Part shown: in pieces, positions 9,606 to 28,520 of the stretch
Layout: each line of letters opens with the position of its first letter
Position numbering within the stretch: position 1 is the first letter of the stretch
Virus record (IMG/VR): IMGVR_UViG_3300020438_000084
Location: 1-41,597 of that record
Reading direction: 5' to 3' (one strand)
Source: a virus
DNA: 41,597 nucleotides
Position numbers and translations under genes: made by a program
Notes under the pieces: model-generated
Seen by the model: the letters and a program-made list of their open reading frames with translations, nothing else
The model's database searches: none
Told to the model about the DNA's origin: nothing

Positions 9606-10012
9606 TATGTAAAGTCTATTTCTAATGTATCACTAATGTTAGTGTTTACAACACTATAAGTTAATGATACAGTTATTGTGTTTGTATCTTCTTGTTTTAA
9701 TATTTCTAAATTACCTATGGCAACATTTGGAAAAAATGTACCTAAATCATTAGATATTCTTTCTTCTAAAAAATCTAAATTATTAGTTGTAATTTGTTGA
9801 AAAATAAACACCCTTAAACCCCCACCAAAACTAGGATTAAGTGGTCTTTCTCCAGGTTCTGTTAAAAAATAATTAATTAAATTGTTTTTAATAGCTGCGG
9901 CTGTTGTGTAATTAGGTCTAAATACACCAGGGGAAGAAAAAGGAAGATCTACTCCTACAGCGGCACTTTTATTAAAGTCAATTGGAAATATTTGTTGAGC
10001 GTCAAATGCCAT
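9605..10012 (-). CDS. gp25-like baseplate wedge protein (GPW/gp25 family)
   Basis: A 135-aa protein carrying the gp25/GpW hallmark around residues 40-66: AIKNNLINYFLTEPGERPLN followed by PSFGGGL, the conserved 'L-T-x-P-G-E-R-x-x-x-P-x-F-G' motif. The remainder gives the alpha/beta fold with a C-terminal strand pair (VSLTYSVVNTNISDTLEID). In contractile injection machines it joins the baseplate wedge to the tube and sheath and is nearly universal. Its position beside the gp6-like gene and the TAATG overlaps at both ends support the assignment. Confidence 0.92.
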   Translation of the reverse strand: MAFDAQQIFPIDFNKSAAVGVDLPFSSPGVFRPNYTTAAAIKNNLINYFLTEPGERPLNPSFGGGLRVFIFQQITTNNLDFLEERISNDLGTFFPNVAIGNLEILKQEDTNTITVSLTYSVVNTNISDTLEIDFT

Positions 10013-13801: not shown

Positions 13802-14527
13802 TTACACTTTTTCAAATTCTATATACCCTTTTTCAAGAAATGTAATGTAATTTTCTCTAAATAAATCATACAACCTTCCTGCAATTTTAGTAATTTTTGG
13901 GGTTTTAACCTCTAACCCATTAGTAGCCATTATTTCTCTAATATAGATGTAGAGAGCTTTTTTATTAAATATTTCAATATTTTCTCTTTTTCTAAATAGT
14001 TCTAATATAGCATCTGCTACTTGGGAATCTTTTCCTTTTGGGAAAAATTTATCAAAGTTGTCTTCAACATAAGAAATGTATTCATCGATAAAAAAAGAAA
14101 GCTTATCTACAGTTCTATCATCCTCTAAATTATAAGAATAAGTTTCATCTTTATATAATTCATCTACTGGAGCTTTATCAATACGTTTTTTGTAATTTTT
14201 AGTATTATATAATATAAGCCAACGTTTTACTATAGTACCAAAATATGAATAGGCTTTAGCCCCTTTACTGGGGTCAAATAAGTGAATTTTAGATAAAAGA
14301 AACGTTATGATTTCATGTTGTAAGTGTTCTATTTTATCTACTTCTGTATAGTAAAATTTAAATGTGTGAATTATGTTTTCTGTAAGTTTAAAAAAGGCAT
14401 AATGGATTTCTTCTCCATAGATTTTACTTTTCTTTTCAGTACACGTAGTATTATTATACAATACAATAGCGTCTTCTGTATCTTGAGTAAAATAATTCCT
14501 CGAGTTTTTTTTTCTACGTCTAGGCAT
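13802..14527 (-). CDS. T4 gp55-like late sigma factor
   Basis: A 241-aa protein with a basic N-terminus (MPRRRKKNSRNYFTQDTEDA) followed by the region typical of T4-type late sigma factors: FTQDTEDAIVLYNNT, then HLFDPSKGAKAYSYFGTIVK with RWLI, corresponding to sigma region 2 (core binding and -10 melting; the aromatic Y-S-Y-F-G and R-W pair are characteristic). It is much shorter than a full sigma-70 and no region 4 is visible, as in gp55, which recognises a single -10-like element. Its position directly before the baseplate genes fits. The probable target is the ATATTTATAA element found upstream of several genes here (inference). Confidence 0.82.
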   Translation of the reverse strand: MPRRRKKNSRNYFTQDTEDAIVLYNNTTCTEKKSKIYGEEIHYAFFKLTENIIHTFKFYYTEVDKIEHLQHEIITFLLSKIHLFDPSKGAKAYSYFGTIVKRWLILYNTKNYKKRIDKAPVDELYKDETYSYNLEDDRTVDKLSFFIDEYISYVEDNFDKFFPKGKDSQVADAILELFRKRENIEIFNKKALYIYIREIMATNGLEVKTPKITKIAGRLYDLFRENYITFLEKGYIEFEKV

Positions 14528-16616: not shown

Positions 16617-16648
16617 TTTGTCTATTACGTTAATATTACGTATATTTA
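16617..16648 (+). promoter_or_regulatory. Bacteroidota-type promoter, nearly leaderless
   Basis: Plus strand TTTG (16617-16620), 20 bp, TATATTTA (16641-16648). The chosen ATG of the MORN-like gene begins at 16654, only five bases after the -7 element, so transcription would begin at or almost at the start codon. Spacer sequence does not match class 1. Confidence 0.5.
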
Positions 16649-16653
16649 TTGAT

Positions 16654-17019
16654 ATGAAACATTTAATTACAATATTATCTATATTTTTATCAACTTCTCT
16701 ATATTCTCAAAATGTATTTTTTGATTATGGTACAAATCTTAAAGAACCAACAAAGATATTTTACGCAAATAGTCAATTAAAAGAAATAGGTTTACTAGAA
16801 GGTAATAAAAGAATTGGGAATTGGTTGTTTTATTCTGAAAAAGGAACCAAATTAGCCCAATGTAAGTTTAATTCTATAGGACAAAAACATGGGGAATGGT
16901 TAGTCTGGGATAATAACTCCCAACTCAAAGCAAAGATGTTCTATAATAACGGAATCCGTAAGGGAAAATGGGAAATCTATGGCCAACATGGTAAATTACT
17001 TATTCGTAGATATTATTAA
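16654..17019 (+). CDS. Secreted MORN-repeat-like protein (YwqK-type)
   Basis: A 121-aa protein with a cleavable signal peptide (MKHLITILSIFLSTSLYSQ). The mature part has MORN-like repeats of the YwqK type: GNWLFYSEKGTKLAQCKF, GEWLVWDNNSQLKAKMFYNN, GKWEIYGQHGKLLIRRYY, each with G-x-W followed by a Y/W-G/N turn. Such proteins are common in Bacteroidota genomes. The frame is open 36 bases further to a TTG, but the ATG at 16654 places the signal peptide at the N-terminus and follows a good promoter. It is the only plus-strand gene in this part and ends in a convergent overlap with the lipoprotein gene at 17000. Role in the phage unknown. Confidence 0.72.
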   Translation: MKHLITILSIFLSTSLYSQNVFFDYGTNLKEPTKIFYANSQLKEIGLLEGNKRIGNWLFYSEKGTKLAQCKFNSIGQKHGEWLVWDNNSQLKAKMFYNNGIRKGKWEIYGQHGKLLIRRYY

Positions 17020-17220: not shown

Positions 17221-17610
17221 TTACTTAGATATGTCTTTGTGAGTATTAGTAGCGTCATCATTTATTGAATTTAAACAATGATTTTCATCAATTTGGTCCA
17301 ACACCCATCTTAACATAGTTCCCGCGGTAGATAACGTTTTATCCCGCTGATTTTTGCCCAATACCGATGATATGGTTTCCTTGGGGTTTCCAAATTTATA
17401 TCCTCCATCTCTAATAAAAATGGCACTGAAAAATTCAGCACCATTAACATTAGCAAATATATCTATTTCACGAGCAGTTCTATAAAACCACACTGAAAGC
17501 ATTCTTTTATTTCCTGTAAAAATATATTTTATGACCATGAAAGCGGCTACAATAGGGAGTAAAAGGTATAATAAAACAATTGCAACAATTAAAATAACTA
17601 ACTCTATCAT
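17221..17610 (-). CDS. Small membrane protein, 129 aa
   Basis: One long N-terminal hydrophobic segment (residues 3-32, starting ELVILIVAIVLLYLLLPIVA, may cross the membrane once or as a hairpin) followed by a soluble domain with GAEFFSAIFIRDGGYKFGNP and TISSVLGKNQRDKTLSTAGT. The G-x-N-P-x-E-T-I-S-S-V-L-G-K-N segment looks well conserved, but I do not recognise the family. It directly follows the T9SS gene, whose stop abuts its start, so the two are co-transcribed. Possible envelope-modifying or lysis-related role; undecided. Confidence 0.6.
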   Translation of the reverse strand: MIELVILIVAIVLLYLLLPIVAAFMVIKYIFTGNKRMLSVWFYRTAREIDIFANVNGAEFFSAIFIRDGGYKFGNPKETISSVLGKNQRDKTLSTAGTMLRWVLDQIDENHCLNSINDDATNTHKDISK

Positions 17611-19134
17611 TTACTCTTTTACAAATTTTAAAGTTCCTTTTCTTTGATTATGGTCTATTTCTAACAAATAGTACCCTTTTTTATAATCCCCAACATCTAA
17701 ATGAAGAACTTTATATTCCCCAATAAATGATTTTTTATAAACCTTTTGACCTTTTGTGTTAAGAATTGTTAGATTAGTAGTACCTCTTAAAGTTTCTTCT
17801 AAATATAAATGTAATTCTTCTCTTACTGGGTTGGGATTAATACTTAGTATAATGGGTTTATCATAAATTACACTAATAGGAGAAAAAGTTTCACTTTCCC
17901 CATCATAATCTGTTTGAGTTAATTTATAATAAGAAACCCCATCATAAGGATTTTCATCATATATAGTATAATCCATTTCAGTATTTGAATTCCCAGCTCC
18001 AGGAATTACAGATACTTCTTCCCACTGTTCACAATCAATACTTTTTTTAATAGTAAAATAATCATTATTAACTTGAGAAGCAACAGCCCAATTTAATTCA
18101 ACATTATTCCCTACAATCTCTCCATTAAATGAAATCAAATCAATAGGTAATGCACTCCCACCATGATTAAATCTCATATTTGGTTTGTAAGAATTAATAT
18201 ATCCTGTAGTAGGAGGAACAACACCATCATTATAATTATATACAACTGTGTTAGATCTTGAAGTATACCTAAATGATGGATAACTAGAAGACCAACTACC
18301 ATCATTATTAACCCATTTAATTATTATTCCTCTATTTCCATCATAATAAAAACTCTGATCTAATGTTATTTCATTCCACCCATACTCCCAAGTAACATCT
18401 CCTTCAAACACCTTAATCCAATTATCCCAAGGCCCATTTCCATCTTCAGGTGAATTAGCAGAAATAAATTCTAATTCATCAGTATAAGCCATAAAAATTG
18501 ATTGATTACTCATAGTAGTAGATATTCCATTAGTAACATCATATGATACTTTATCAATTATAATAGGAGTAGGACCTAAATCATCCACCCCATATATTGA
18601 GGCTGACCATGAATAATCATAATAACCATAAGTTGGAACCCTACTATCATTTGTAGTAGAAGCAGAATTACCCACTTGAGTATAATCTAATGACCCCGCA
18701 GCAGCAGCAGTCCTTAATATCATCACTTCAGTACAAGTTTGATTTGTTGCACAATTATATTGATTTAAATGTATATATAATACCCCGGTATACCCAGCAG
18801 TCCACTTAATATAAGAAGTATACCCACTACACCCTGTATAATCATCATTAAATCCAACTACTATTCCTCCTTCATCAAATAAAGTTAATTGGGTATCGTA
18901 AGAAGCATTAACTCCCCCATTTCCAGAACATGTTGAAATTTCATATTCATCTCCAGAAATTATATTTACTCTAATTACTTCACCAGCCCAATTACAAGTT
19001 GTAGCAGACCCCCAAACTCCATCAGTTGGATCGTATATAGATGAAGGGTAATAATTAGTTCCATTGTTACATTGTGTATTTCCTGTTAGATTAACAAAAA
19101 ACACTACTAAAAGTGTTAAAATTAATTTTTTCAT
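17611..19134 (-). CDS. Secreted protein with a T9SS type A C-terminal sorting domain
   Basis: A 507-aa protein with a signal peptide (MKKLILTLLVVFFVNLTGNT). Residues about 25-145 resemble a PPC/CUB-like beta domain (YDTQLTLFDEGGIVVGFNDD, then TGVLYIHLNQYNC). A central beta region follows, and the C-terminal 81 residues (from 427: ILSINPNPVREELHLYL, then LTILNTKGQKVYKKSF, GYYLLEIDHNQRKGTLKFVK) form a Por-secretion-system type A sorting domain, with the INPNP opening and KFVK ending. Such domains direct export across the outer membrane by the T9SS, present only in Bacteroidota. The protein would act on the host surface or outside the cell. A class-2 promoter element lies 15 bases upstream. Confidence 0.85.
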   Translation of the reverse strand: MKKLILTLLVVFFVNLTGNTQCNNGTNYYPSSIYDPTDGVWGSATTCNWAGEVIRVNIISGDEYEISTCSGNGGVNASYDTQLTLFDEGGIVVGFNDDYTGCSGYTSYIKWTAGYTGVLYIHLNQYNCATNQTCTEVMILRTAAAAGSLDYTQVGNSASTTNDSRVPTYGYYDYSWSASIYGVDDLGPTPIIIDKVSYDVTNGISTTMSNQSIFMAYTDELEFISANSPEDGNGPWDNWIKVFEGDVTWEYGWNEITLDQSFYYDGNRGIIIKWVNNDGSWSSSYPSFRYTSRSNTVVYNYNDGVVPPTTGYINSYKPNMRFNHGGSALPIDLISFNGEIVGNNVELNWAVASQVNNDYFTIKKSIDCEQWEEVSVIPGAGNSNTEMDYTIYDENPYDGVSYYKLTQTDYDGESETFSPISVIYDKPIILSINPNPVREELHLYLEETLRGTTNLTILNTKGQKVYKKSFIGEYKVLHLDVGDYKKGYYLLEIDHNQRKGTLKFVKE

Positions 19135-19149: not shown

Positions 19150-19159
19150 TTATAAATAT
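19150..19159 (-). promoter_or_regulatory. Class-2 (late-type) promoter candidate ATATTTATAA
   Basis: Minus-strand TATATATTTATAA just upstream of the T9SS-protein gene (ATG at 19134). There is no TTTG 20 bp upstream of the overlapping TATATTTA. If the assignment is right, the T9SS protein is made late in infection. Confidence 0.5.
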
Positions 19160-19183: not shown

Positions 19184-19324
19184 TTATTTATTGCTTTTTA
19201 CATTTTTCCCCAATTCTTCCATTATTTTTTTATATTGTATTTTTTCGTATTTAGTTAAAGAGTCATACCATTTAGGAAAGTCACCACCTTTAACTTTAAA
19301 TAATTCTTTTTTAATATCTTTCAT
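19184..19324 (-). CDS. Small basic protein, 46 aa
   Basis: A 46-codon frame beginning MKDIKKELFKVKGGDFPKWY and ending ELGKNVKSNK. Strongly basic, helical, with an F-P-K-W-Y segment. It overlaps the 3' end of the MUG113-like gene by 14 bases, which suggests co-translation. No family recognised. Confidence 0.5.
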   Translation of the reverse strand: MKDIKKELFKVKGGDFPKWYDSLTKYEKIQYKKIMEELGKNVKSNK

Positions 19325-19799
19325 TTGTATAAGTTTTACCTAGTTTTAATATAGTATTTTTAGCTTCTTCAACTGTTATTTCAAAATGTTCTCTATCTGA
19401 ACTAATCCTACAATAATCTAATTCTTTATGAACTTCTCTTTCTAAATTATGTCCATCGTGGCATTTAAAAGCCCATACTACCTTGTAAGGTGAAGGTACC
19501 CCTGTACTTCTAGATATTTCTTTAGCTCGTATTTCTGGGTGTTTACCTGTAAATCCAATTTTTAATATGTTAGGTATAGTTGAGTTTGAAAGAATATAAA
19601 CATAATAATTCCCTTCTCCTTGAAAATAAGTTTTTTTCTTTCTTCTTGTAATATAGGTAAGATTTTCCCAACCATTACCATCTGGGGTTAGGGTATAACC
19701 TAAAATTTTCTTCCAATCTTTTTTTATATTTACAAGATCTAAATTTTGTTCTTTACTTGTAAAATAATTGGATGCTTCTTCAACAGTTAGTTTTTTCAT
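19311..19799 (-). CDS. MUG113/T5orf172-type GIY-YIG-related protein
   Basis: A 162-aa protein whose residues about 57-150 match the MUG113/T5orf172 relative of GIY-YIG nucleases: YYVYILSNSTIPNILKIGFT (the Y-V-Y-I-L then K-I-G-F-T pair replaces GIY...YIG), then RAKEISRSTGVPSPYKVVWA, LEREVHKELDYCRISSDREH, with the usual R, H and E-H-F-E positions. Related domains are frequent in phages and may cut DNA, but activity here is unproven. The ~50-residue N-terminal extension is unassigned. ATGA overlap with the upstream 91-aa gene. Confidence 0.72.
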   Translation of the reverse strand: MKKLTVEEASNYFTSKEQNLDLVNIKKDWKKILGYTLTPDGNGWENLTYITRRKKKTYFQGEGNYYVYILSNSTIPNILKIGFTGKHPEIRAKEISRSTGVPSPYKVVWAFKCHDGHNLEREVHKELDYCRISSDREHFEITVEEAKNTILKLGKTYTNERY

Positions 19800-20071
19800 A
19801 TTCCTCTTCTTTTTGAAATTAATTTTCTTTCATTTAATATTTCACTAGGTATAATAATTGAAGTATTGTTAAAATGAGTTAATCGATTAGTACCATAAAC
19901 ATATAAAGGACCCTCATACTTTTCTCCATTTATTCTTCTTTTCCCATCAAATGACCTAAAATCTTTACAAGTAACTCTATACCAATTATCTAATTTAGGT
20001 AAATATACCTCTAAGTTTTTAGAATCATCAAAATCATTCTTTAATTTTTCTAATTCACCCGTTTTTTCCAT
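19796..20071 (-). CDS. Hypothetical protein, 91 aa
   Basis: A soluble protein, MEKTGELEKLKNDFDDSKNL at the start, with a central beta-rich stretch (VYLPKLDNWYRVTCKDFRSF and GEKYEGPLYVYGTNRLTHFN). No recognised family. It is coupled on both sides: TAATG with the lipoprotein gene upstream and ATGA with the MUG113-like gene downstream. Confidence 0.55.
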   Translation of the reverse strand: MEKTGELEKLKNDFDDSKNLEVYLPKLDNWYRVTCKDFRSFDGKRRINGEKYEGPLYVYGTNRLTHFNNTSIIIPSEILNERKLISKRRGI

Positions 20072-20763
20072 TATATAACAATTATTTTTATTTGATTATC
20101 AATTATTTCTTTAGGGGATGGGGTATTATGTCCATGATACACAACTCCACCCTCTGTATTAAAAATAGTTTCTATAAATACATTAATAGTATCCCCAATC
20201 ATTTCATCATCTAACATAAAATTTTGTTTAGGTTTATAATTATATTTTGAATGCGACCCTATAATTGTTTCAGCATATGGACATTCAGTACAAAAATGTT
20301 TAGGTATCTGATACCCAGCAATATTAGTTGGTGGATGTAAATCAATTAAATCATTTATAGTATAGGTATATGAACCAAAAGGTATAGGGGTATTTAATGT
20401 GTTATCATTAAACCATCCTAAATATGAGTACATAGGTGTTTGAAATCTTAATGTATCAAATATAACCCAATAATCAGAATCAAAGTTAGCTTCAATTAAA
20501 GGTACACCATTGATAACATATTGATCATTTAATGGGGTTAAATTACCTTCTATTTGAAAATAATTTAATCCATTCCAATCTATCTCATAATAACCATTAG
20601 CGTTTGGGAAAATAGGTACCCCTTGATAAATAACTGTATAATTACCATCACAATTACCATTACAAGGTGATTGGTGGATTGTTTGTTTTGTACAAGATGA
20701 TAAAATTACCAATAAATAAAACACAAATACAAACACAAAAAATGTTTTTGTTGATTTTTTCAT
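20071..20763 (-). CDS. Lipoprotein, 230 aa
   Basis: An N-terminal leader MKKSTKTFFVFVFVFYLLVI followed by LSSC gives a clear lipobox with Cys24 as the lipidated residue. The mature protein is rich in Asn, Tyr and Pro, with a possible metal or disulphide cluster (HFCTECPYAETIIGSHSKYN) and paired Cys near the N-terminus (SPCNGNCDG). It is presumably exported to the outer membrane. No family recognised. Possible uses are superinfection exclusion or surface modification, by position only. Confidence 0.62.
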   Translation of the reverse strand: MKKSTKTFFVFVFVFYLLVILSSCTKQTIHQSPCNGNCDGNYTVIYQGVPIFPNANGYYEIDWNGLNYFQIEGNLTPLNDQYVINGVPLIEANFDSDYWVIFDTLRFQTPMYSYLGWFNDNTLNTPIPFGSYTYTINDLIDLHPPTNIAGYQIPKHFCTECPYAETIIGSHSKYNYKPKQNFMLDDEMIGDTINVFIETIFNTEGGVVYHGHNTPSPKEIIDNQIKIIVI

Positions 20764-20768: not shown

Positions 20769-20963
20769 TTATTTTAATAAACTTTTAATATATACTAAAA
20801 CAATAAAGGGCCATAACAATATCCCAAATATTCTCTCTCCCATACTAAATTTGGGAGCATTTTCACCCATAAATTCTAATTGATTCTCATAAGCATGAAT
20901 AATACATTCAATAAAGAACATTAAACAAACTCCCATTCCTAAATATACCATAATAACCTTCAT
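20769..20963 (-). CDS. Small membrane protein, 64 aa
   Basis: Two hydrophobic segments (MKVIMVYLGMGVCLMFFIEC and ERIFGILLWPFIVLVYIKSL) separated by a short polar loop, so it probably spans the membrane twice. First gene of the leftward envelope cluster, following the class-1 promoter at 20979-21010. Function unknown. Confidence 0.55.
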   Translation of the reverse strand: MKVIMVYLGMGVCLMFFIECIIHAYENQLEFMGENAPKFSMGERIFGILLWPFIVLVYIKSLLK

Positions 20964-20978
20964 TTTTTTATTTATACA

Positions 20979-21010
20979 TAAATATACGAACCTTCCCTTG
21001 GGATTCCAAA
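20979..21010 (-). promoter_or_regulatory. Class-1 promoter for the leftward envelope cluster
   Basis: Minus strand: TTTG, 20-bp spacer GAATCCCAAGGGAAGGTTCG, TATATTTA. Shares TTGGA, CC and TTCGTATATTTA with the other copies. It points away from the plus-strand copy at 21086, so this 150-bp interval is a divergent control region. Confidence 0.75.
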
Positions 21011-21085
21011 TATTTCAGCGGGAAAATTCAAACCTCTATACACACCCCCCAATTTAAATACGTATATACTCATATGTAAAATAAC

Positions 21086-21116
21086 TTGGAAATCCCATAT
21101 TTTTTTCGTATATTAA
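21086..21116 (+). promoter_or_regulatory. Class-1-like promoter for the rightward operon
   Basis: Plus strand: TTG (21086-21088), 20-bp spacer GAAATCCCATATTTTTTTCG, TATATTAA. It keeps the TTGGA and TTCGTATATT blocks. The first ATG of the rightward operon follows 13 bases later. Confidence 0.68.
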
Positions 21117-21129
21117 CACCAAAATAAAG

Positions 21130-21330
21130 ATGAGAGCTAAAGAAATAATATTACAATTATTGAGCCCAACTGGTATTATAGAAGGTGAAATAAAAATGAA
21201 AACATCCACAATAAATCAAATTGGTAGGAATAGATTAGTGATGTTGGATGATGGAAAACCAATAGGTCATATGAAAGTTATTGATGATGGTAAAGGAAAT
21301 GTTATAGATATTGAATTAAACAAATATTAA
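21130..21330 (+). CDS. Hypothetical protein, 66 aa
   Basis: First gene of the only rightward operon. MRAKEIILQLLSPTGIIEGE, then NRLVMLDDGKPIGHMKVIDD suggests a small beta-rich fold. No family recognised. Start chosen as the first ATG after the plus-strand promoter, with AAAATAAAG just upstream. Confidence 0.6.
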   Translation: MRAKEIILQLLSPTGIIEGEIKMKTSTINQIGRNRLVMLDDGKPIGHMKVIDDGKGNVIDIELNKY

Positions 21331-21342
21331 ACCAAAACAAAG

Positions 21343-21513
21343 ATGATGAAGAAATACAAATTAGAATTAATTAATTATGATTTAAATAATAATCCTATAA
21401 GTGGGGTATCTAGAACTATAGGAAAAATGAGTTTTAAAAAACTTAGAAAATTCCAAAGTGATTACCCAGGTAGGGTAGATTTAGTTAGAAAATTAAACAT
21501 TAAAGAAATATAG
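21343..21513 (+). CDS. Small basic protein, 56 aa
   Basis: A 56-codon frame starting with two Met codons (MMKKYKLELINYDLNNNPIS) and ending DLVRKLNIKEI. The second half is basic (GKMSFKKLRKFQSDYPGRVD). It sits 12 bp after the 66-aa gene and 2 bp before the 193-aa gene, so it belongs to the same operon. Function unknown. Confidence 0.58.
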   Translation: MMKKYKLELINYDLNNNPISGVSRTIGKMSFKKLRKFQSDYPGRVDLVRKLNIKEI

Positions 21514-21515
21514 TT

Positions 21516-22097
21516 ATGGCAAACCATTTAACAAGTTGGATTAAAGTTAAAGCAAATGAAGATGCTTTAAAATATGTTGATTCATTAATAGATAAAACTG
21601 AAGAAAAATATGAAAATGATACTCATGGTATAATAGCATTTGCTAAAGCATTTTATAAAAATGTTGATTGTGGAGATGGTGGGGGTGTAATGTATGGTTG
21701 GGCAACTGATAATATAGGTCCTAAATGGACTTATTTAGTTGAAGTTGAAGATGAAGGAGAGTTTTCCATTACATCAGCTTGGTATCCTCCAAAACAATTT
21801 TTCATTCATTTATATAAACTATGTGCTGAATTGGATGAAAATGTAGAAATTGAAGTAAAATATGAAGATGAATCATATGATCCAATAGGTGCTATGGTTG
21901 TGAAAAAAGATAAAGATGGTACTCCTTGTATATGGGAAGAAGAAGATTATGTAGAAAACCCAACTGATGATATGGATTGGGAAGATGAAGGTTATTATGA
22001 AGCAAAACAAGAGTTTTATGATGAAGTTTATGAAACTAAACAAGAACTTTTAAAAGAATGTCACTCATTAGTACTTACTGATGGTGAACCAATTTAA
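21516..22097 (+). CDS. Acidic protein, possibly Api92/DUF1281-like
   Basis: A very acidic 193-aa protein. The start MANHLTSWIKVKANEDALKY, followed by an aromatic segment (MYGWATDNIGPKWTYLVEVE, then SITSAWYPPKQFFIHLYKLC), resembles phage/plasmid Api92/DUF1281 proteins, which begin with 'M-x-N-H' and carry a W-x-P-P-x-x-F motif; this is resemblance only. The C-terminal 60 residues are a run of Glu/Asp/Tyr (EEEDYVENPTDDMDWEDEGY), as in DNA-mimic-like proteins. Translation start context is TATAGTTATGGCA, repeated at the next gene. Confidence 0.6.
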   Translation: MANHLTSWIKVKANEDALKYVDSLIDKTEEKYENDTHGIIAFAKAFYKNVDCGDGGGVMYGWATDNIGPKWTYLVEVEDEGEFSITSAWYPPKQFFIHLYKLCAELDENVEIEVKYEDESYDPIGAMVVKKDKDGTPCIWEEEDYVENPTDDMDWEDEGYYEAKQEFYDEVYETKQELLKECHSLVLTDGEPI

Positions 22098-22112
22098 TAA
22101 TAAAATATAGTT

Positions 22113-22313
22113 ATGGCAAAATTAAGAAAAATGGTTACTTACACAGATTATAGATGGGAAGTAACCGAGGACTTAACTCCTGAACAAATTAAAAAATGGA
22201 AATCCGGTGATGAGAATCTACAAGAAGAAGTATTAGATGAAGTTGAATTTGACTTATCACATGATAAAGTTTTAGAAGATCATGATTACCCTGAATTAAT
22301 AGAAGATGAATAA
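22113..22313 (+). CDS. Small acidic protein, 66 aa
   Basis: Acidic protein (MAKLRKMVTYTDYRWEVTED, then WKSGDENLQEEVLDEVEFDL). It shares the TATAGTTATGGCA start context with its upstream neighbour and overlaps the next gene by 8 bases. No family recognised. Confidence 0.58.
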   Translation: MAKLRKMVTYTDYRWEVTEDLTPEQIKKWKSGDENLQEEVLDEVEFDLSHDKVLEDHDYPELIEDE

Positions 22314-22668
22314 ATTATTAAAATCAAATAAATACTTACGTAGGAGATTCCTACAAAGACGTACTAGAATATTTACACGGTGGCTTAAGATTAATTTTGA
22401 AAAACCATACACAATATTTTTAGCTGCGTTTTTCCCTTTTTCACAAGCATTTTTTGCATCGGTGATCGTGTTGTTTACCTCTCCTGATAAAAATGAGTTG
22501 AGTGATAATCTGAATTTGTTTGGGGTAGCAGCTATGTACTATTTAGCATTTGCAATGAATAGTAAACGAGCAACTAAAGGTTCTTGGTTAGGATTACTTA
22601 TGTTGGTTGGATTTGGTGCTCTGGGAATAATATGTGGAAAAATGTTTACAATAATTTATATAAAATGA
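22306..22668 (+). CDS. Membrane protein, 120 aa
   Basis: A strongly basic N-terminus (MNKLLKSNKYLRRRFLQRRT) followed by three hydrophobic segments: TIFLAAFFPFSQAFFASVIV, LNLFGVAAMYYLAFAM and LGLLMLVGFGALGIICGKMF. By the positive-inside rule the N-terminus would face the cytoplasm. Coupled to both neighbours (8-base overlap upstream, ATGA downstream). Function unknown; a holin is possible on topology alone but there is no lysis gene next to it. Confidence 0.6.
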   Translation: MNKLLKSNKYLRRRFLQRRTRIFTRWLKINFEKPYTIFLAAFFPFSQAFFASVIVLFTSPDKNELSDNLNLFGVAAMYYLAFAMNSKRATKGSWLGLLMLVGFGALGIICGKMFTIIYIK

Positions 22669-22802
22669 AAAAGATAAAAACACCTGTAGATTGGCTTGAA
22701 GAAAATAGAAAAAAATACCCTAATGGAACTATTTCTAGTAAAATAATGGAGGGTTATGCTAAATATTACTATCAACAAAAAATAAAAAATGATAATACTT
22801 GA
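22665..22802 (+). CDS. Small basic protein, 45 aa
   Basis: Frame MKKIKTPVDWLEENRKKYPN ... IKNDNT. The frame is open further upstream, but the ATG at 22665 overlaps the stop of the membrane-protein gene as ATGA, so this start is preferred. The P-V-D-W-L-E segment is common in small phage proteins. Function unknown. Confidence 0.58.
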   Translation: MKKIKTPVDWLEENRKKYPNGTISSKIMEGYAKYYYQQKIKNDNT

Positions 22803-22980
22803 ATTTACCCAATGGGGAGTAATAGTCTATATGGGGTGGGTCTTATACCAATGTTATAAAACACTGAAGGCAATGTTAGAATTTCAAAGGGCTTCAATAA
22901 AACAATTTGATGTTGAAGTTAGGAAAATTTATAAGATTTTAAATGATATAGATGAGCAAAGTACAACAAGAAATAGTTAA
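22789..22980 (+). CDS. Small membrane protein, 63 aa
   Basis: One N-terminal hydrophobic helix (LEFTQWGVIVYMGWVLYQCY) followed by an amphipathic helical tail. It overlaps the 45-aa gene by 14 bases and its own 3' end is overlapped by the next small frame at 22952. Function unknown. Confidence 0.55.
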   Translation: MIILEFTQWGVIVYMGWVLYQCYKTLKAMLEFQRASIKQFDVEVRKIYKILNDIDEQSTTRNS

Positions 22981-23157
22981 GTTATTTGAAATTTTATTAA
23001 AAAGCTAGTATATACTTTTGTCGATACAAAAAGATTTGTTAAAAAAAGAGATTTGATATCTTTGGATTTTACATTAGTTGGGTTAAATGGGTTTTCATAC
23101 CATGGTTTGGATATAGGTATATACAACATCGATGGTGAAAAGGTGTACTTCTGCTAA
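22952..23157 (+). pseudogene. Frameshifted small gene (possible -1 frameshift)
   Basis: An ATG at 22952 opens MSKVQQEIVKLFEILLKS and stops at TAG 23006-23008. In the -1 frame the sequence continues from the same place as KKLVYTFVDTKRFVKKRDLI, then SLDFTLVGLNGFSYHGLDIG and IYNIDGEKVYFC with a stop at 23155-23157. The two halves read as one 68-residue protein if the ribosome slips, or a base has been lost or gained, at the AAAAAG run (about 22998-23003). The second half has no ATG of its own. Either a broken gene, programmed frameshifting or a sequencing error. Confidence 0.5.
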
Positions 23158-23502
23158 ACATACATCTACTTCCTTTTACCGCATATCCACGCGTATATGG
23201 ACATCAGCATACATGGGTATTATCGCGGTATATGCGCGTACGTACGCCGGCTAAACGTAAGTATACAACATGCAATGCTATAATGCCATGGTATAACAAC
23301 ATAAGATGTATTGTGTAATTAAGTATATATAAGGTAAGCAGGGTGTATCCCACATCGCTTAATGCAATGCAGGATACTTGGTTATGAATAACGGTAGATC
23401 CCTATTCTACCTATGTATGAGGTACGGTTTACTTATGTTACCCGTTATCCCCACCGGTATTATCCTCACCACATTACATGGCAAGGTGTGTAAATAATGC
23501 GT
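23158..23502. other. Gene-free, structured, higher-GC interval
   Basis: No convincing reading frame in 345 bp between convergent operons. GC is visibly higher than in the genes. Inverted repeats: GCATAT/ATATGC (23181-23186 with 23230-23235) enclosing CGCG/CGCG (23190-23193 with 23224-23227); GTATCC/GGATAC (23345-23350 with 23372-23377); GTTA/TAAC (23381-23392); GGTAGA/TCTACC (23393-23398 with 23406-23411); GAGG/CCTC (23419-23422 with 23464-23467). It could be a structured RNA, a bidirectional termination zone or part of an origin. No T-run terminator is visible. Confidence 0.45.
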
Positions 23503-23805
23503 TTATGCTATAAATCTAACATCTGAATATTTAATTTTTCCAATTGCTCTTTTACCTAGCATATCATATGTGAAAAGTGTAACACATGTTGGACCCCATT
23601 TAGTAACATTCATACCGTTGTAGCTACTATGGATCCCATCCGATTCATTTTTAATGTGAGAGAATGATGTACGGAATACTTTAGGTATTCTACCAAATTC
23701 CCCATTCTCTTTTTTACCATATTCAGTAATACCATTGATAGTGAAACTTGTTTTTTCTTCACTCATTAAAATTTCTCTTACTTTTTTAACATCTTTTTTA
23801 TTCAT
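23503..23805 (-). CDS. Hypothetical protein, 100 aa
   Basis: A basic soluble protein, MNKKDVKKVREILMSEEKTS, then FRTSFSHIKNESDGIHSSYN and GPTCVTLFTYDMLGKRAIGK. No recognised family. It has its own class-1 promoter (23832-23863) and the AAAGGTTATG start context, but stands alone between two gene-free stretches, so it may be linked to whatever those do. Confidence 0.58.
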   Translation of the reverse strand: MNKKDVKKVREILMSEEKTSFTINGITEYGKKENGEFGRIPKVFRTSFSHIKNESDGIHSSYNGMNVTKWGPTCVTLFTYDMLGKRAIGKIKYSDVRFIA

Positions 23806-23831
23806 AACCTTTATTTTTCTTATTTACCCCG

Positions 23832-23863
23832 TAAATATACGAACCCCCCCTCGGGTATCCAAG
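23832..23863 (-). promoter_or_regulatory. Class-1 promoter for the 100-aa gene
   Basis: CTTG, spacer GATACCCGAGGGGGGGTTCG (20 bp), TATATTTA on the minus strand. The downstream flank gives an imperfect form of the palindrome (TTTAC-GGG-GTAAA). Confidence 0.75.
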
Positions 23864-23924
23864 CCTCCCCACATATGTCTTTCACTAGTGTTTGCTAGTT
23901 GTCACTTACTATCGCGTAATTTGT

Positions 23925-23960
23925 TGCTTAATCCTTTGCTTAATGCCCTGCTTAATGCTA
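23925..23960 (+). repeat. Three tandem 12-bp TGCTTAATNCNN repeats
   Basis: TGCTTAATCCTT, TGCTTAATGCCC and TGCTTAATGCTA follow each other without a gap (start 23925, 23937, 23949). A fixed 12-bp period would place the motif on nearly the same face of the helix. More copies lie at 24099-24122, and single relatives at 23358 (GCTTAATGC) and 24173. Confidence 0.7.
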
Positions 23961-24098
23961 GTAGCGCGCGAGGAGGCGTGAACCGCGAGTTGTTCATATA
24001 TACTTTGAAGGTAACTTGAGAGAGGTTGGCTTGCGATGTGAAGGGGTTAATGTTGGATGAATCCTAACTCACATACCATTACGTACCTTTTACACATA

Positions 24099-24122
24099 CG
24101 CTTAATTCTTTGCTTAATCCTT
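24099..24122 (+). repeat. Two further 12-bp GCTTAAT repeats
   Basis: CGCTTAATTCTT and TGCTTAATCCTT, again spaced exactly 12 bp, same orientation as the array at 23925. Confidence 0.6.
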
Positions 24123-24166
24123 ACATTGTTAACCACACATTGCATTAGGTTACTCACACGTTGTAT

Positions 24167-24247
24167 TTAATCATGCTTAAAATAACCCGCTATTGAAGCT
24201 AACACATACAATACAACAGCCACTATGCTTGAAATTAACTTTCTCAT
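24167..24247 (-). CDS. Possible 26-aa membrane peptide
   Basis: Frame MRKLISSIVAVVLYVLASIA then GYFKHD: basic start, one hydrophobic helix, charged end. It lies 3 bp after the stop of the 55-aa membrane protein. Too short to be sure; the clean single-helix design and operon position favour it. Confidence 0.35.
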   Translation of the reverse strand: MRKLISSIVAVVLYVLASIAGYFKHD

Positions 24248-24250
24248 TTA

Positions 24251-24418
24251 TTATTGTCTATCAACATTTTGTCCATTCACAAGAGCCAATATTCCCCAAA
24301 ATACCAATTGATTCAAATTATCACTCTCATTAACAAAACTCATATAATATTGATAACAAACCATCACCATACAAAATATGAACACTAAACTCATAAACAT
24401 TTTTCTTTTATTTTCCAT
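24251..24418 (-). CDS. Small membrane protein, 55 aa
   Basis: Frame MENKRKMFMSLVFIFCMVMV ... ILALVNGQNVDRQ with a hydrophobic N-terminal helix (residues 8-22) and a second, weaker one near residues 37-47. It directly follows the 71-aa gene. Function unknown. Confidence 0.5.
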   Translation of the reverse strand: MENKRKMFMSLVFIFCMVMVCYQYYMSFVNESDNLNQLVFWGILALVNGQNVDRQ

Positions 24419-24419
24419 A

Positions 24420-24635
24420 TTACTTACTTAAACGTTCCACATAATTAATAAACTCATTCAATACCGATTTAACACCCAAAATATCCTCATCCTCACCATA
24501 CATTTCCTTATCCAACAAATACAGCTTTTTAAAATGTTTTAACTTTTGAGTGTAATTAGATAATTTTTGAGTGTTATTTGTTTTTTGATTCTCGAGATTA
24601 TCTTTAATCTCCTTTTTTATTTTATTCATATCCAT
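24420..24635 (-). CDS. Small coiled-coil protein, 71 aa
   Basis: Charged helical protein (MDMNKIKKEIKDNLENQKTN, then KLSNYTQKLKHFKKLYLLDK), very likely a coiled coil. It sits between the repeat element at 24651 and the small membrane genes. No family recognised. Confidence 0.55.
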   Translation of the reverse strand: MDMNKIKKEIKDNLENQKTNNTQKLSNYTQKLKHFKKLYLLDKEMYGEDEDILGVKSVLNEFINYVERLSK

Positions 24636-24650
24636 TATAAAAATTTTTTA

Positions 24651-24690
24651 GTTGTTGCTTTATAATAACAACTTAATAGTTGTTGCTTTA
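24651..24690 (-). repeat. Three-segment inverted-repeat element, copy 1
   Basis: The minus strand reads CAACAACT - AGTTGTTA - GCAACAAC (24678-24685, 24666-24673, 24651-24658). The middle segment can pair with either outer one, so two hairpins exclude each other. It starts at the stop codon of the 196-aa gene. A near-identical copy lies at 25924-25966; here the T-run after the last segment is not preserved. Confidence 0.55.
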
Positions 24691-25278
24691 TAAATCCCAT
24701 GTTGTTGTTTTATTATTTATTTTCTCATCTATTTGCTCATCCAACATTACTTCAGTTTTTAAAAACGGATAACCACTTTTATTTTCAACAACACATTTAT
24801 CATAAGGTATATTATAAAACCTTAATAACGTTAAATCATTTGTTCTGCTCCATTCTTTTTTACCAAACATATAAATCGTTCGTGCTCTATCACCCTTAAG
24901 TGTAACCATTTTTTTAAACAAATAATAATGATTACCGTTTGAGCTCATATAAAATTCATCACCGTCTTTATCCGCATGAAAACATTGTGGTGTTAAATCA
25001 TCATTTTCTTCACTTGCATTAACTAACAAATCTTCACTTTCTCCATTCCATATTGGATCTGGATTATTATTATCTCCCCCATCGTTATCTTTCTCATTTA
25101 CCCATTCTTTAAATAAATTGCTAGTAACTAATTTATGATCACTTTTATCTAAAATAACCACATCATAATATTGCTTAATCAGCTGTTTTCTATACGAATC
25201 AGCGCTTGCTTTATCCTTACATAACTTGACGTTCAAACTACCTTCTACCTGTTTTTTACTCAATACTATATAACCCAT
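24688..25278 (-). CDS. Hypothetical protein, 196 aa
   Basis: Soluble, acidic in the middle (WVNEKDNDGGDNNNPDPIWN). The N-terminus (MGYIVLSKKQVEGSLNVKLC then SADSYRKQLIKQYYDVVILD) looks like a small alpha/beta domain; the second half (YYLFKKMVTLKGDRARTIYM then FGKKEWSRTNDLTLLRFYNI) has no recognised motif. Third gene of the cassette started by the promoter at 25873-25904. The stop codon runs into the repeat element at 24651. Confidence 0.58.
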   Translation of the reverse strand: MGYIVLSKKQVEGSLNVKLCKDKASADSYRKQLIKQYYDVVILDKSDHKLVTSNLFKEWVNEKDNDGGDNNNPDPIWNGESEDLLVNASEENDDLTPQCFHADKDGDEFYMSSNGNHYYLFKKMVTLKGDRARTIYMFGKKEWSRTNDLTLLRFYNIPYDKCVVENKSGYPFLKTEVMLDEQIDEKINNKTTTWDL

Positions 25279-25280
25279 TT

Positions 25281-25505
25281 TTATTTTGATTTTCGAATTT
25301 GAAATGTATTTACCTCAGTGTACTTATAAATTCCTCTATGTGTTTTGCTTTCAATTCCAAAGCTACCTCCTATCATATGATGAATAATCCCTTCGGTTAC
25401 CATTTCTGTAATTCTATTTATGTAGGAAACTTTATCACCACTCTGAATCATATTGCCATCGCAATCCTTAGTTGTCTCTAATTCCCTTATATCTGCTTTA
25501 CTCAT
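25281..25505 (-). CDS. Small protein with an SH3/KOW-like pattern, 74 aa
   Basis: MSKADIRELETTKDCDGNMI, then QSGDKVSYINRITEMVTEGI and GSFGIESKTHRGIYKYTEVN. The pattern of a G-D-x-V strand, a turn and repeated short strands is that of small SH3-like beta barrels. No assigned function. Start context AAGGGTTATG. Confidence 0.55.
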   Translation of the reverse strand: MSKADIRELETTKDCDGNMIQSGDKVSYINRITEMVTEGIIHHMIGGSFGIESKTHRGIYKYTEVNTFQIRKSK

Positions 25506-25510
25506 AACCC

Positions 25511-25849
25511 TTATTCCCCATATTTAGCAAATGAAACACTAGCTCTATGAAATCTATCTTCACCTTCCTCCATTTCACATGGTTCAAAATTAATAACTTC
25601 AAAACCATGTAAATTTAATATTTCGGTAATTGATTCTTGCTCCTCACTATCAAAACACTGATCATCACCTCTTTTGAAATAAAATCCATCTACACCATTG
25701 TATCTACCTGAACCTATTTTAGCGTAATCCTCTTCAATAATACCTCTTTTACCATAAACCTCACCAAAATTCCAATCCATCTCAAGATTAATACCTTCTT
25801 GAATAATTTCTCTACTTACTTGCTTTACTAATTCATTTCTATTTTTCAT
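25511..25849 (-). CDS. Hypothetical acidic protein, 112 aa
   Basis: Starts MKNRNELVKQVSREIIQEGI; the frame has a second ATG two codons upstream, but the GGTTATG context used across the region fits this one. Acidic and aromatic in the centre (GRYNGVDGFYFKRGDDQCFD). No recognised family. First gene of the cassette under the class-1 promoter at 25873-25904. Confidence 0.58.
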   Translation of the reverse strand: MKNRNELVKQVSREIIQEGINLEMDWNFGEVYGKRGIIEEDYAKIGSGRYNGVDGFYFKRGDDQCFDSEEQESITEILNLHGFEVINFEPCEMEEGEDRFHRASVSFAKYGE

Positions 25850-25872
25850 AACCATTATTTTTATTTACGCCG

Positions 25873-25904
25873 TAAATATACGAACCCTTCCTCGGGTATC
25901 CAAA
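25873..25904 (-). promoter_or_regulatory. Class-1 promoter with operator-like palindrome
   Basis: TTTG, spacer GATACCCGAGGAAGGGTTCG (20 bp, with ACCC/GGGT inverted repeat), TATATTTA. The -7 end is part of the palindrome ATTTACGGCGTAAAT (25864-25878). Upstream box TTTAAAGGCTTCC at 25914-25926. Confidence 0.82.
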
Positions 25905-25923
25905 CATTTACGCGGAAGCCTTT

Positions 25924-25966
25924 AAAAAAAGTTGTTACTTTTTAATAACAACTTAATAGTTGTTAC
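25924..25966 (-). terminator. Intrinsic terminator within three-segment element, copy 2
   Basis: Minus strand: GTAACAACT - AGTTGTTA - TAACAAC followed by seven T (25924-25930). The last two segments give a 7-bp stem plus T-run, a standard intrinsic terminator; the first two give a competing hairpin, as in attenuators. Same element as 24651-24690. Confidence 0.65.
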
Positions 25967-26025
25967 TTTTTGGAAGATAAAAATGCTAGTATTGCTAGAA
26001 TGATAAAAACTATGTATCCTTTCAT
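25963..26025 (-). CDS. Possible 20-aa membrane peptide
   Basis: Frame MKGYIVFIILAILAFLSSKK, a single hydrophobic helix with charged ends. Its stop codon falls in the first segment of the terminator element, the same relation seen at the 3' end of the 196-aa gene at copy 1. The frame is open 26 codons upstream without ATG. Short, so uncertain. Confidence 0.35.
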   Translation of the reverse strand: MKGYIVFIILAILAFLSSKK

Positions 26026-26037
26026 TTGTTGGTTTTT

Positions 26038-26115
26038 TACTTGTTTAATTAAAGCGTATAACTCCCCTTCGCGGAAGTCTTTAAAGTAGATTAAGCTAAG
26101 GAACCATTGTCTCTC
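26038..26115. repeat. Degenerate duplicate of the 26281-26385 segment
   Basis: ACTTGTTTAATTAAAGCGTATAACTCC here (26039-26064) corresponds to the segment starting 26281 with one base changed; both are followed by ATTAAGCT..AG (26090 and 26365), with different lengths between. It also holds an orphan promoter upstream box (GGAAGTCTTTAAAG, 26073-26086) without a promoter. A cassette-exchange scar is likely. Confidence 0.5.
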
Positions 26116-26259
26116 GTTTATACCTTATTTTCAAATTCAATCGGCAGGCTAATCTAAACCTGGGCGTCATCACGTTAAGTGGCTCATATGTCCATCACCC
26201 GTCTATCCACTATAGTTAACTACACTATTTCTCATCATGTGTGGCACACTAGTCAATAG
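26116..26259. other. Gene-free stretch with short hairpins
   Basis: Higher GC than the flanks. Inverted repeats include CAGG/CCTG (26146-26161), AGTGG/CCACT (26178-26182 with 26207-26211) and TGTG/CACA near 26239-26249. May be a structured RNA or the remains of one. No good reading frame. Confidence 0.35.
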
Positions 26260-26352
26260 TCATTTTGACTCGTATTTTTTAACTTGTTTTATTAAAGCGT
26301 ATAACTCCACATTGAAGTTATCCCAATATTGTTTGTATTTGTCTATGTTCAT
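26260..26352 (-). CDS. Possible 30-aa peptide
   Basis: Frame MNIDKYKQYWDNFNVELYAL, then IKQVKKYESK. The segment ELYALIKQVK is repeated in the degenerate duplicate at 26038, in frame with the 20-aa membrane peptide. This suggests a once longer gene split by rearrangement. Low certainty. Confidence 0.35.
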   Translation of the reverse strand: MNIDKYKQYWDNFNVELYALIKQVKKYESK

Positions 26353-26404
26353 TTTGTATATACGGATTAAGCTGAGTGGTATTGATAAAAAGAAAGCTAG
26401 AAGT

Positions 26405-26530
26405 TTATCTTCTTTTGTTTCTATTTCTGTTTCTCTCTGCTTGTTTTTGTTTTTTCTCCCTTATGTGAGGTAAAGAATTGTACCATTCATTTACTGTTTT
26501 AACTGTTTGTCTAATTGAATTTCTACTCAT
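26405..26530 (-). CDS. Small very basic protein, 41 aa
   Basis: Frame MSRNSIRQTVKTVNEWYNSL, then PHIREKKQKQAERNRNRNKR and R. The Arg/Asn/Lys-rich tail suggests nucleic-acid binding. It lies 4 bp after the 37-aa gene in the same cassette. Confidence 0.45.
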   Translation of the reverse strand: MSRNSIRQTVKTVNEWYNSLPHIREKKQKQAERNRNRNKRR

Positions 26531-26534
26531 TATT

Positions 26535-26648
26535 TTATTTTTTTAGGTTTGTTTTATTTTCGAATTCTTTTTGTGTTATTTTACCTTCTAGTAAGAGTAA
26601 AACATATTTTGTAATATCTATATTTGTTTTTTTATTAATTGCTTGCAT
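26535..26648 (-). CDS. Small protein, 37 aa
   Basis: Frame MQAINKKTNIDITKYVLLLL, then EGKITQKEFENKTNLKK. It starts 2 bp after the stop of the 249-aa coiled-coil gene. The pattern L-L-E-G-K-I-T-x-x-E-F is seen in short helical regulators, but no family is claimed. Confidence 0.45.
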   Translation of the reverse strand: MQAINKKTNIDITKYVLLLLEGKITQKEFENKTNLKK

Positions 26649-26650
26649 AA

Positions 26651-27400
26651 TTAAACGTGTCTTTCTAAATCATTAATTAAATGACTTACATTATCTAATC
26701 TTACTTTATCATGAATTGATTTTCTATCTTCAACAACCCATTTTCCATCAACCCAACTTCCACCAACAGATGTTAACTCAAGTGTAAGTGATTTTTTATT
26801 ATCATTAGTCCAACTTAAAAATTTAACATTTTTAACTTCAGTAACTCTATAATCATGTCTAACATAAACTGTTTGACGTTCAATATTAACACCTTTAAAT
26901 AATTTATTTAAATTTTCTAGTTTTTTAATTTCTCTATCTTCTTTTTCAAGTTGAGAAATTTCTTTTTCTAATTCCCAAGATTGTTTATTTAATTTCTTTA
27001 TTGAATTTTTATTTTTCATTGATAACGATCTAGTATATTCAATTATTTCTTTATAATCATTTTTAACTATTTTACTAACCATTCCTAACATGTTTAATCT
27101 ATCTAATTCAATAAGATTATCTGATTTAGTTTGTGATGAATAATAACCAATAAGAATATGAGTTGGTTTTGGATCTCTATAAGTATCACCTCTTAATGAT
27201 AATGTACAAATTTCATTCCCTTCTTTATCGTATAAACGAAAATAATCATCATGATCAAATGAAATTTTATTCGCAAATGGGAAATAATGTTTTTTAATGA
27301 AACTTGAAACTTCTGTTCTTGTTTCTTGTCTTAATTTATAAATTTTATCTTCTAATTTTGAATTTTCTAATTCTAACTTTTCAATTTTTTGATTTTTCAT
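26651..27400 (-). CDS. Coiled-coil protein, 249 aa
   Basis: Starts MKNQKIEKLELENSKLEDKI, a coiled coil, with a second one near residues 145-185 (SWELEKEISQLEKEDREIKK). The part between them and the C-terminal part (RHDYRVTEVKNVKFLSWTND, LTLELTSVGGSWVDGKWVVE) are globular. The frame is open 21 codons upstream, but that stretch (MLGYLREGSYIYDV) is the class-1 promoter and leader in translation, so the ATG after AAAGGTT is used. No family recognised. Confidence 0.62.
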   Translation of the reverse strand: MKNQKIEKLELENSKLEDKIYKLRQETRTEVSSFIKKHYFPFANKISFDHDDYFRLYDKEGNEICTLSLRGDTYRDPKPTHILIGYYSSQTKSDNLIELDRLNMLGMVSKIVKNDYKEIIEYTRSLSMKNKNSIKKLNKQSWELEKEISQLEKEDREIKKLENLNKLFKGVNIERQTVYVRHDYRVTEVKNVKFLSWTNDNKKSLTLELTSVGGSWVDGKWVVEDRKSIHDKVRLDNVSHLINDLERHV

Positions 27401-27428
27401 AACCTTTATTATTTTTTTATTTACGTCG

Positions 27429-27460
27429 TAAATATACGAACCCTCTCTCAGGTATCCAAG
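27429..27460 (-). promoter_or_regulatory. Class-1 promoter with operator-like palindrome
   Basis: CTTG, spacer GATACCTGAGAGAGGGTTCG (20 bp), TATATTTA; palindrome ATTTACGACGTAAAT at 27420-27434; upstream box AAAGGCTTCC at 27470-27479. Drives the 249-aa gene and the small genes after it. Confidence 0.82.
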
Positions 27461-27484
27461 CATTTTTATGGAAGCCTTTAAAAA

Positions 27485-27664
27485 CTAGTAACTGTCTATC
27501 TCCCAAGCTAAACCTGAAGCTCCTGTACTATCACTGTATGAATTGATTTTTAATATATTACCATCTGTGAATTTAATTATATATATTTCTTCATCAATTT
27601 CAATATCTTGATCAATACTTTCAATTGTTTTTCCTTCAAATATTTTTATTGTTGGTTCTGCCAT
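27485..27664 (-). CDS. Small acidic protein, 59 aa
   Basis: Frame MAEPTIKIFEGKTIESIDQD ... GASGLAWEIDSY with a beta-rich pattern (EEIYIIKFTDGNILKINSYS). It follows the 66-aa gene by 10 bp in the same cassette, with AAAAGTTATG before the start. No family recognised. Confidence 0.6.
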   Translation of the reverse strand: MAEPTIKIFEGKTIESIDQDIEIDEEIYIIKFTDGNILKINSYSDSTGASGLAWEIDSY

Positions 27665-27674
27665 AACTTTTATT

Positions 27675-27875
27675 TTATCTATTAAGGTGTTGTTGTTTTT
27701 CTATATTAACTTGTTTTTCAACTTCTCTTACACCATTAAAAAACTCATCATTGTGGCAAAAATAAGAATGGTATTCTTCTATTAAATCAACTAGCTTTTC
27801 TTGAAACTCATTAATTTTTTCCATTTTAATATACTCTAATCTTTTTTGAATTATTTCTTTTTCTTGTGTTCCCAT
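27675..27875 (-). CDS. Small coiled-coil protein, 66 aa
   Basis: MGTQEKEIIQKRLEYIKMEK, then INEFQEKLVDLIEEYHSYFC: charged, helical, probably coiled coil. First gene of a two-gene cassette under the promoter at 27916-27947; start context AAAGGTTATG. Confidence 0.57.
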   Translation of the reverse strand: MGTQEKEIIQKRLEYIKMEKINEFQEKLVDLIEEYHSYFCHNDEFFNGVREVEKQVNIEKQQHLNR

Positions 27876-27915
27876 AACCTTTATTTTTTAATTATACCTT
27901 AACTTTCTAACACCG

Positions 27916-27947: not shown

Positions 27948-27964
27948 CATTCGCGTGGAAGCCT

Positions 27965-28474: not shown

Positions 28475-28520
28475 AACCTTTATTTTTTAAATTTAACTTG
28501 CTCGAACCATTCGAACACCG

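Follow-up and report, generated by a model that had tools for sequence, protein, structure and literature searches.

Phage proteins with T9SS type A sorting domains have been described before. In Cryophage they lie in variable islands, and the cargo comprises an endoglucanase, GH39 and PA14 (PMC7468147). Its authors propose that the phage hijacks the host T9SS, possibly for superinfection exclusion (PMC7468147). Likewise, crAss-like cluster 2 has T9SS sorting domains in ORFs that lie close to structural genes. This is a different phage group with a BACON-repeat context, and the passages of that paper that deal with these ORFs describe no cassette exchange (PMC6949934). The initial annotation of the DNA studied here had called a phage-encoded T9SS cargo unusual. 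This view is not supported: such cargo was published in 2019-2020 (PMC7468147, PMC6949934), two huge phages have similar proteins, and each of the seven clade contigs examined whole has at least one long- or short-tailed protein. The huge-phage proteins are Fn3-like and related to the one studied here; read by eye, that of LR756500 closes with a PNP-type tail and that of LR756504 with a stretch resembling a tail. As a concept, it is not new.

The window, which means the whole stretch of DNA analysed here, is the full source record of 41,597 bases, an IMG/VR virus entry. Compared with Cryophage (PMC7468147), the present case differs in the phages, which are marine and T4-like, and in the payloads, which are of adhesion type. 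It also differs in having one fixed site, a constant Fn3-like domain with its tail, and an alternation with short tails. The features of the window are the following.

7746-10012, minus strand: baseplate wedge genes (7746-9605 and 9605-10012; phrog_219 and phrog_261, TIGR02243 in part)
17221-17610, minus strand: gene for a 129-aa membrane protein, phrog_3342-like, the downstream border of the variable site (52 viral loci in the search)
17611-19134, minus strand: whole gene of the predicted T9SS cargo, an open frame of 507 aa (orthologues at L002 142-1683 and L003 1012-2556)
17614-17856, minus strand: long type A T9SS sorting domain, residues 427-507 (PF18962 and TIGR04183 above the curated cut-offs)
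17863-18153, minus strand: Fn3-like domain (residues 328-424), constant across the cassettes and alignable in all cargo at the site
18160-18687, minus strand: middle module, residues 150-325, optional (missing in L007, L008 and L009; behind a CUB domain in L066)
18709-19071, minus strand: N-module, residues 22-142, a PPC-like beta domain by sequence pattern, with conserved cysteines and homologous to N-termini of Flavobacteriales cargo
19072-19134, minus strand: predicted signal peptide, residues 1-21, MKKLILTLLVVFFVNLTGNTQ, read from the sequence
19150-19159, minus strand: class-2 promoter-like element ATATTTATAA, starting 25 nt upstream of the ATG
19311-19799, minus strand: T5orf172/MUG113-domain gene, the upstream border of the variable site (Pfam 62.4 bits; adjoins the site in many relatives, empty sites included)

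The cargo gene is one intact, complete ORF with an ATG start; it lies on the minus strand, which the initial annotation had left unstated. We consider it likely that it encodes a phage-borne, host-derived T9SS cargo that acts as an exchangeable surface-display cassette, probably made late, and alters the surface of the infected cell.

Both ends of the protein point to export. The N-terminus, MKKLILTLLVVFFVNLTGNTQ followed by a cysteine, shows K-K and then a hydrophobic core, which resembles a Sec signal peptide as read from the sequence. All homologues have a hydrophobic stretch at this end, and Q21-C22 is invariant. Because the residue preceding Cys22 is Q, there is no lipobox. At the other end, PF18962 (Por_Secre_tail) matches with 38.6 bits (cut-off 27, E 1.4e-9) and TIGR04183 with 28.9 bits (cut-off 23). 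The match covers residues 432-504 of 507 (window 17623-17841), the extreme C-terminus, and it is the single T9SS sorting domain in the whole record. It opens with INPNP, contains TKGQKV with its central G, and has the basic end GTLKFVKE. The initial annotation had read a signal peptide, beta domains and a C-terminus running from INPNP to KFVK, and had proposed a comparison with these two families. The start is indeed signal-peptide-like, the two motifs are in place, and both curated cut-offs are passed. Since CTDs can be species-specific (PMC11285876), a sorting-domain match is no proof of secretion by a particular host.

The AF2 model is all-beta, as that annotation expected, with a mean pLDDT of 67. 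Confidence is reasonable in the N-module, with block means mostly 68-87, and in the Fn3-like domain (64-89). The tail is modelled with seven strands at low confidence (pLDDT about 45-63), at residues 428-432, 442-447, 452-458, 464-471, 477-481, 488-494 and 499-506. No specific match to the modelled tail was found in the PDB. Foldseek against the PDB gave generic beta-sandwich matches only (TM about 0.2), because the packing of the domains is uncertain in the model. The BFVD structure search returned relatives from uncultured phages, one labelled CUB and one Fn3-like, and then generic Fn3 proteins. When alignment A3 was run as an HMM against solved structures, nothing meaningful came up. The N-module has no Pfam match and the cargo gene no matching PHROGs family. 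The L009 homologue shows a weak match, under the cut-off, to choice-of-anchor U.

The cysteines of the N-module also have a pattern. Cys22, Cys69, Cys102 and Cys128 are invariant across every complete homologue. In the per-row table of 27 sequences, Cys47 and Cys134 are both present in 10 and both missing in 17, with no mixed case. This joint gain or loss fits a disulfide that would be made outside the cytoplasm in an exported domain.

A search of 84,980 bacterial and archaeal genomes gave seven relatives, every one from a Flavobacteriales or marine Bacteroidetes MAG (L033-L039). In each of them, the N-module is the N-terminus of a secreted-type, cargo-like protein of 444-1231 aa. Homologues of the N-module occur in cellular genomes only in this position. 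These exoproteins are chromosomal, and their tail is mostly type B (CHU_C-like), as in L035 (TIGR04131). L034 has a type A tail (TIGR04183), and its alignment to the phage protein covers the N-module at one end and the Fn3-like domain with the tail at the other. The phage middle module was not found in any of the seven. Three of the relatives (L033, L035, L038) adjoin mnmE. In the N-module tree, six of the seven bacterial rows stand apart from the phages (99/98). The seventh, L034, sits on a long branch whose position is uncertain. The MAGs with the closest homologues encode SprA, PorV and 37-68 PF18962 matches each. Marine Flavobacteriales are therefore the likeliest host group. The best explanation for the cargo protein appears to be a host origin, with a build from host-like parts.

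The gene belongs to the phage. The baseplate wedge genes indicate that the contig is that of a contractile-tailed phage. L002 and L003, from other metagenomes, encode full-length orthologues with 67-69% identity to the window protein. In both, the cargo adjoins the same 129-aa membrane, 251-aa phosphohydrolase-like and sigma-like genes. L003 has a T5orf172-type gene on the other side of the cargo, and in L002 the gene order continues into the same hub-region protein as in the window. Two independent contigs thus agree with the window in the order of the baseplate-side genes around the cargo. Two larger clade relatives, G017 and G019 (160,544 and 65,222 bases), have a gene for gp23, the capsid protein of T4 type. 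The initial annotation had named host DNA misassembled into the phage contig as the finding that would speak against it. Host homologues do exist for the N-module and the tail. Nevertheless, L002 and L003 keep the gene order, and 19 further contigs have cargo at the same border gene. Misassembly is refuted by this synteny, and we give it practically no chance. Together with the sorting-domain match, this supports the central proposal of that annotation, a phage gene product that would be addressed to the host T9SS.

The family is also present in other surroundings (L004-L006 and L007/L008), which makes at least three genome contexts. L004-L006 differ in gene content; their cargo lies beside a protein of about 3,100 aa and a ribonucleotide-reductase-like gene, both named by eye. 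A megablast of window positions 1-25000 against 50,697 phage records gave no match. L007 encodes a second T9SS cargo (919-3975, 1018 aa, 51.7 bits). After it comes a 361-aa beta-rich protein of secreted type (3972-5057), which may be an outer-membrane barrel. We considered it as a T9SS partner barrel and set this aside, as it has no family match. Likewise, small membrane genes next to the cargo in other phages were considered as holins, and the matches are too weak to name them.

To survey the site, we went through all 52 loci found with the 129-aa neighbour and noted which genes lie upstream of it. The site is occupied by a protein with the Fn3-like domain and an export-type tail in 22 contigs, a count that includes the window, several fragments and some near copies (e.g. 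the L066/67/68/71/72 group). It is empty in nine contigs, in which the T5orf172 gene is directly followed by the 129-aa gene. All the proteins share only one part, the Fn3-like domain (in many cases together with the tail), and this domain has 42-68% identity to that of the window (BLAST among distinct proteins). The front ends are of several unrelated types, including the PPC-like module, CUB, MAM and P-domain. More precisely, Pfam finds CUB in L066, MAM in L063, L069 and L075, and P_proprotein in L063. L065 and L073 have a cysteine-rich front with no Pfam match. The tail is the long type A in 10 of the 22 occupied sites and short in the other 12. All seven clade contigs examined whole encode at least one long- or short-tailed protein; in three of them the site is empty and such proteins are found elsewhere.

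Three allelic genes, those of the window, L002 and L003, give a clean picture of module exchange. The window is 81-82% identical to L002 in the front modules (amino acids), 57% in the Fn3-like domain and 35% in the tail. With L003, the values are 49% in the middle module, 78% in the Fn3-like domain and 81% in the tail. In its middle module, L003 instead shares 80-82% identity with L004-L006, contigs of other phages. We read the locus as a variable site, in which the predicted export tag is kept and the part that would be displayed on the surface is swapped. The T9SS-addressed phage gene of the initial annotation is supported and its exceptional status is not; the architecture of the variable site and the short-tail alternative were missed. 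Within the literature searched, a site with a constant export unit and a variable payload is new for T4-like phages. The T5orf172/MUG113 gene (19311-19799) lies beside the site even when this is empty, and may have a role in exchanging the cassettes.

Sixteen distinct phage homologues whose C-terminus is complete have, in place of the long domain, about 39 residues of the form ...VNxMGQEVxxxYKGxVxExYxDGTxxKK... In their alignment (A2), G14, G23, G32 and K36 are invariant, and the proteins, which have a signal-peptide-like start, end with motifs B, D and E. Neither Pfam nor NCBIfam scores these tails. A profile made from them finds the same tail at the end of signal-peptide-like proteins in five of the seven Flavobacteriales MAGs. 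One of these proteins is PHA depolymerase-like (models of extracellular PHA depolymerases, below the cut-offs). In the profile-profile comparison (hhalign), short and long tails align with E 0.06-0.28, which is not significant, and the local mode aligns only motif B. For this reason we call the tails short-CTD-like and do not file them as members; the name draws on the order of their motifs, on their position, and on the fact that they take the place of the long domain at one and the same point of the protein.

Prevotella intermedia offers the closest comparison. It is described as the only species reported with both CTD forms, and its short CTDs are cleaved and glycosylated as the long ones are (PMC11969387). 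As in the phages, the C-terminal signal is shortened with motifs B, D and E kept, and short and long forms coexist as alternatives (PMC11969387). The lengths are counted differently: the phage tails have about 38-40 aa from the end of the Fn3-like domain, and those of P. intermedia 40-55 aa from the cleavage site (PMC11969387). Cleavage and surface glycosylation were seen there by mass spectrometry (PMC11969387). In HBP35 of P. gingivalis, the targeting signal was placed in the last 22 residues, according to the citation of that work in PMC11285876. The natural exchange of long and short tails in one protein family is independent evidence that tails of about 39 aa may be working T9SS signals in Flavobacteriales. 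If so, marine Bacteroidota would have further secreted proteins that have gone uncounted, as the tails are unscored in Pfam and NCBIfam. As far as we searched the literature, both the natural tail swap and the likely short tails in Flavobacteriales are new.

The class-2 element mentioned in the initial annotation is present, as ATATTTATAA, 25 nt before the ATG. Of the six minus-strand copies of its 9-mer ATATTTATA, five precede a gene start by 13-27 nt. These starts are 13768 (start of the baseplate-side cluster), 16317, 16562, 19134 (the cargo gene) and 34217. In L002, L066-L068, L072, L073 and L084, the cargo genes, whether their payload is the same or another, have a similar element 19-25 nt upstream. 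L063, L065, L075, L083 and L085 show only looser variants, L069 has a class-2-like element 52 nt upstream, and L003 has none upstream of its cargo. Late timing is deduced from the element common to the cargo and the baseplate-side genes, and we regard it as reasonably probable. Class 2 shares TATATTTA with class 1, so the word late rests on position only.

Class 1, likewise promoter-like, consists of TTGGATACC, a spacer and CGTATATTTA; the minus strand has 16 copies of the CGTATATTTA part. This class precedes genes between 20963 and 38285. A long conserved promoter-like repeat (TTGGATACC ... GTTCGTATATTTA) is seen at 20963-38351 (minus strand), about 25-70 nt upstream of many starts. Mechanical ORFs at several genes read through this repeat, which gives false N-termini such as MLGYxREGSYIYxVNKKIIKVM. 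A 241-aa protein (13802-14527, minus strand) has very weak matches to sigma-70 region 2 and RpoE-like families. It is a candidate late sigma factor and could serve late expression.

Signal peptide, periplasmic oxidation, T9SS export and anchoring are established steps of this pathway. The cargo would be made in the infected cell and carried across the inner membrane by its Sec signal peptide, and its disulfides would form in the periplasm. The host T9SS would then move it through the outer membrane by the C-terminal tail, and it would probably be anchored on the cell surface. We hold actual export to be very likely, and surface display somewhat less so, still with good confidence. The Fn3-like domain and the tail may be a reusable export and anchoring unit, and the front part an exchangeable, disulfide-bonded payload of adhesion type. 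To our knowledge, the use of T9SS by phages after entry is hardly known. A site with a constant export tag and a changing payload is a direct experimental handle on it.

The purpose, most likely, would be to change the infected-cell surface during infection. In F. columnare, mutations in T9SS and gliding genes give phage resistance, and in flavobacteria these genes are frequent sites of phage-resistance mutations (PMC9233685). In Cellulophaga baltica, gliding proteins have been linked to adsorption (PMC13288928). Surface proteins that depend on T9SS thus count in adsorption, and a phage that gives the T9SS-built surface a new coat would most simply block or shift the adsorption of its rivals. 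Our best guess is that the T9SS-delivered surface proteins used by other phages would be masked or competed with, resulting in superinfection exclusion. It leads the functional guesses, and we put it forward tentatively against the other surface roles taken together. For the clade as a whole, we suggest as a possibility, a little firmer than this guess, that marine T4-like phages keep a dedicated surface-display site. Its Fn3-like domain and T9SS tail (long or short) would be constant and its adhesive payloads exchanged between lineages, possibly with the aid of the adjacent T5orf172-domain gene. In effect, this would be a phage-encoded, switchable coat for the infected cell that the host T9SS delivers.

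The main rival is a surface adhesin or colonisation factor, whose displayed payload would make infected cells adhere to one another, to particles or to further hosts; the spread of the phage would benefit, or the survival of hosts in which infection is slow. The CUB, MAM, PPC-like and P-domain payloads are extracellular ligand-binding types, the nearest cellular relatives are ordinary host exoproteins, and variable ligands would fit the diversity of payloads. However, this candidate has no known ligand, and an adhesin made late in a lytic T4-like phage has a short time to act. We consider it rather unlikely, somewhat below superinfection exclusion. A T9SS decoy is improbable. Here, abundant phage cargo would saturate the translocon, host T9SS proteins that serve as phage receptors would not be renewed, and the payload would do little. 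It would agree with the export unit as the sole constant part and with the effect of T9SS and gliding proteins on phage sensitivity. Nevertheless, the payload modules are conserved too (the N-module has 59-93% identity across phages), so they are under selection.

Virion ornament, passive passenger and the misassembly treated above rank low. The gene lies near baseplate genes and has a promoter-like element in common with them, and phage particles commonly bear Ig-like domains. The protein could then be a tail or capsid ornament whose tail domain merely resembles a sorting signal. This is quite improbable, since virion proteins assembled in the cytoplasm need no signal peptide, and a signal-peptide-like N-terminus is present throughout. 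The perfect co-variation of the cysteine pair, the two curated family matches and the secreted type of the host homologues also speak against it. We give slightly less weight still to a passive passenger from the host with no role in infection. The nine contigs with an empty site and the host-like sequence would suit such a passenger. Conversely, every one of the seven whole contigs carries such a protein, including the three with an empty site, and the open frames, the conserved cysteines and the recurring upstream element speak against it. The reading we prefer is the exchangeable cargo displayed through the host T9SS.

Other genes were seen in the window. A plus-strand gene amid the minus-strand region (16618-17019) encodes a signal-peptide-like protein with a MORN_2 repeat. 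A similar protein comes directly after the cargo gene in L007 (10813-11190) and L008 (9437-9811), and L035 and L038 also have MORN_2 proteins in the vicinity of the bacterial homologues. On the minus strand, 20071-20763 encodes a 230-aa protein with a lipobox-like start (LVILSSC) and no family match; its relatives (230-236 aa) have the same place in many clade contigs. The HD_4-domain protein at 29241-29741 (minus strand; 39.0 bits, cut-off 27.2) has the domain type of (p)ppGpp hydrolases. Finally, 36317-36775 (minus strand) encodes the C-terminal domain of a CorA-like Mg2+ channel (PF01544, 69.6 bits), with the GMN motif.
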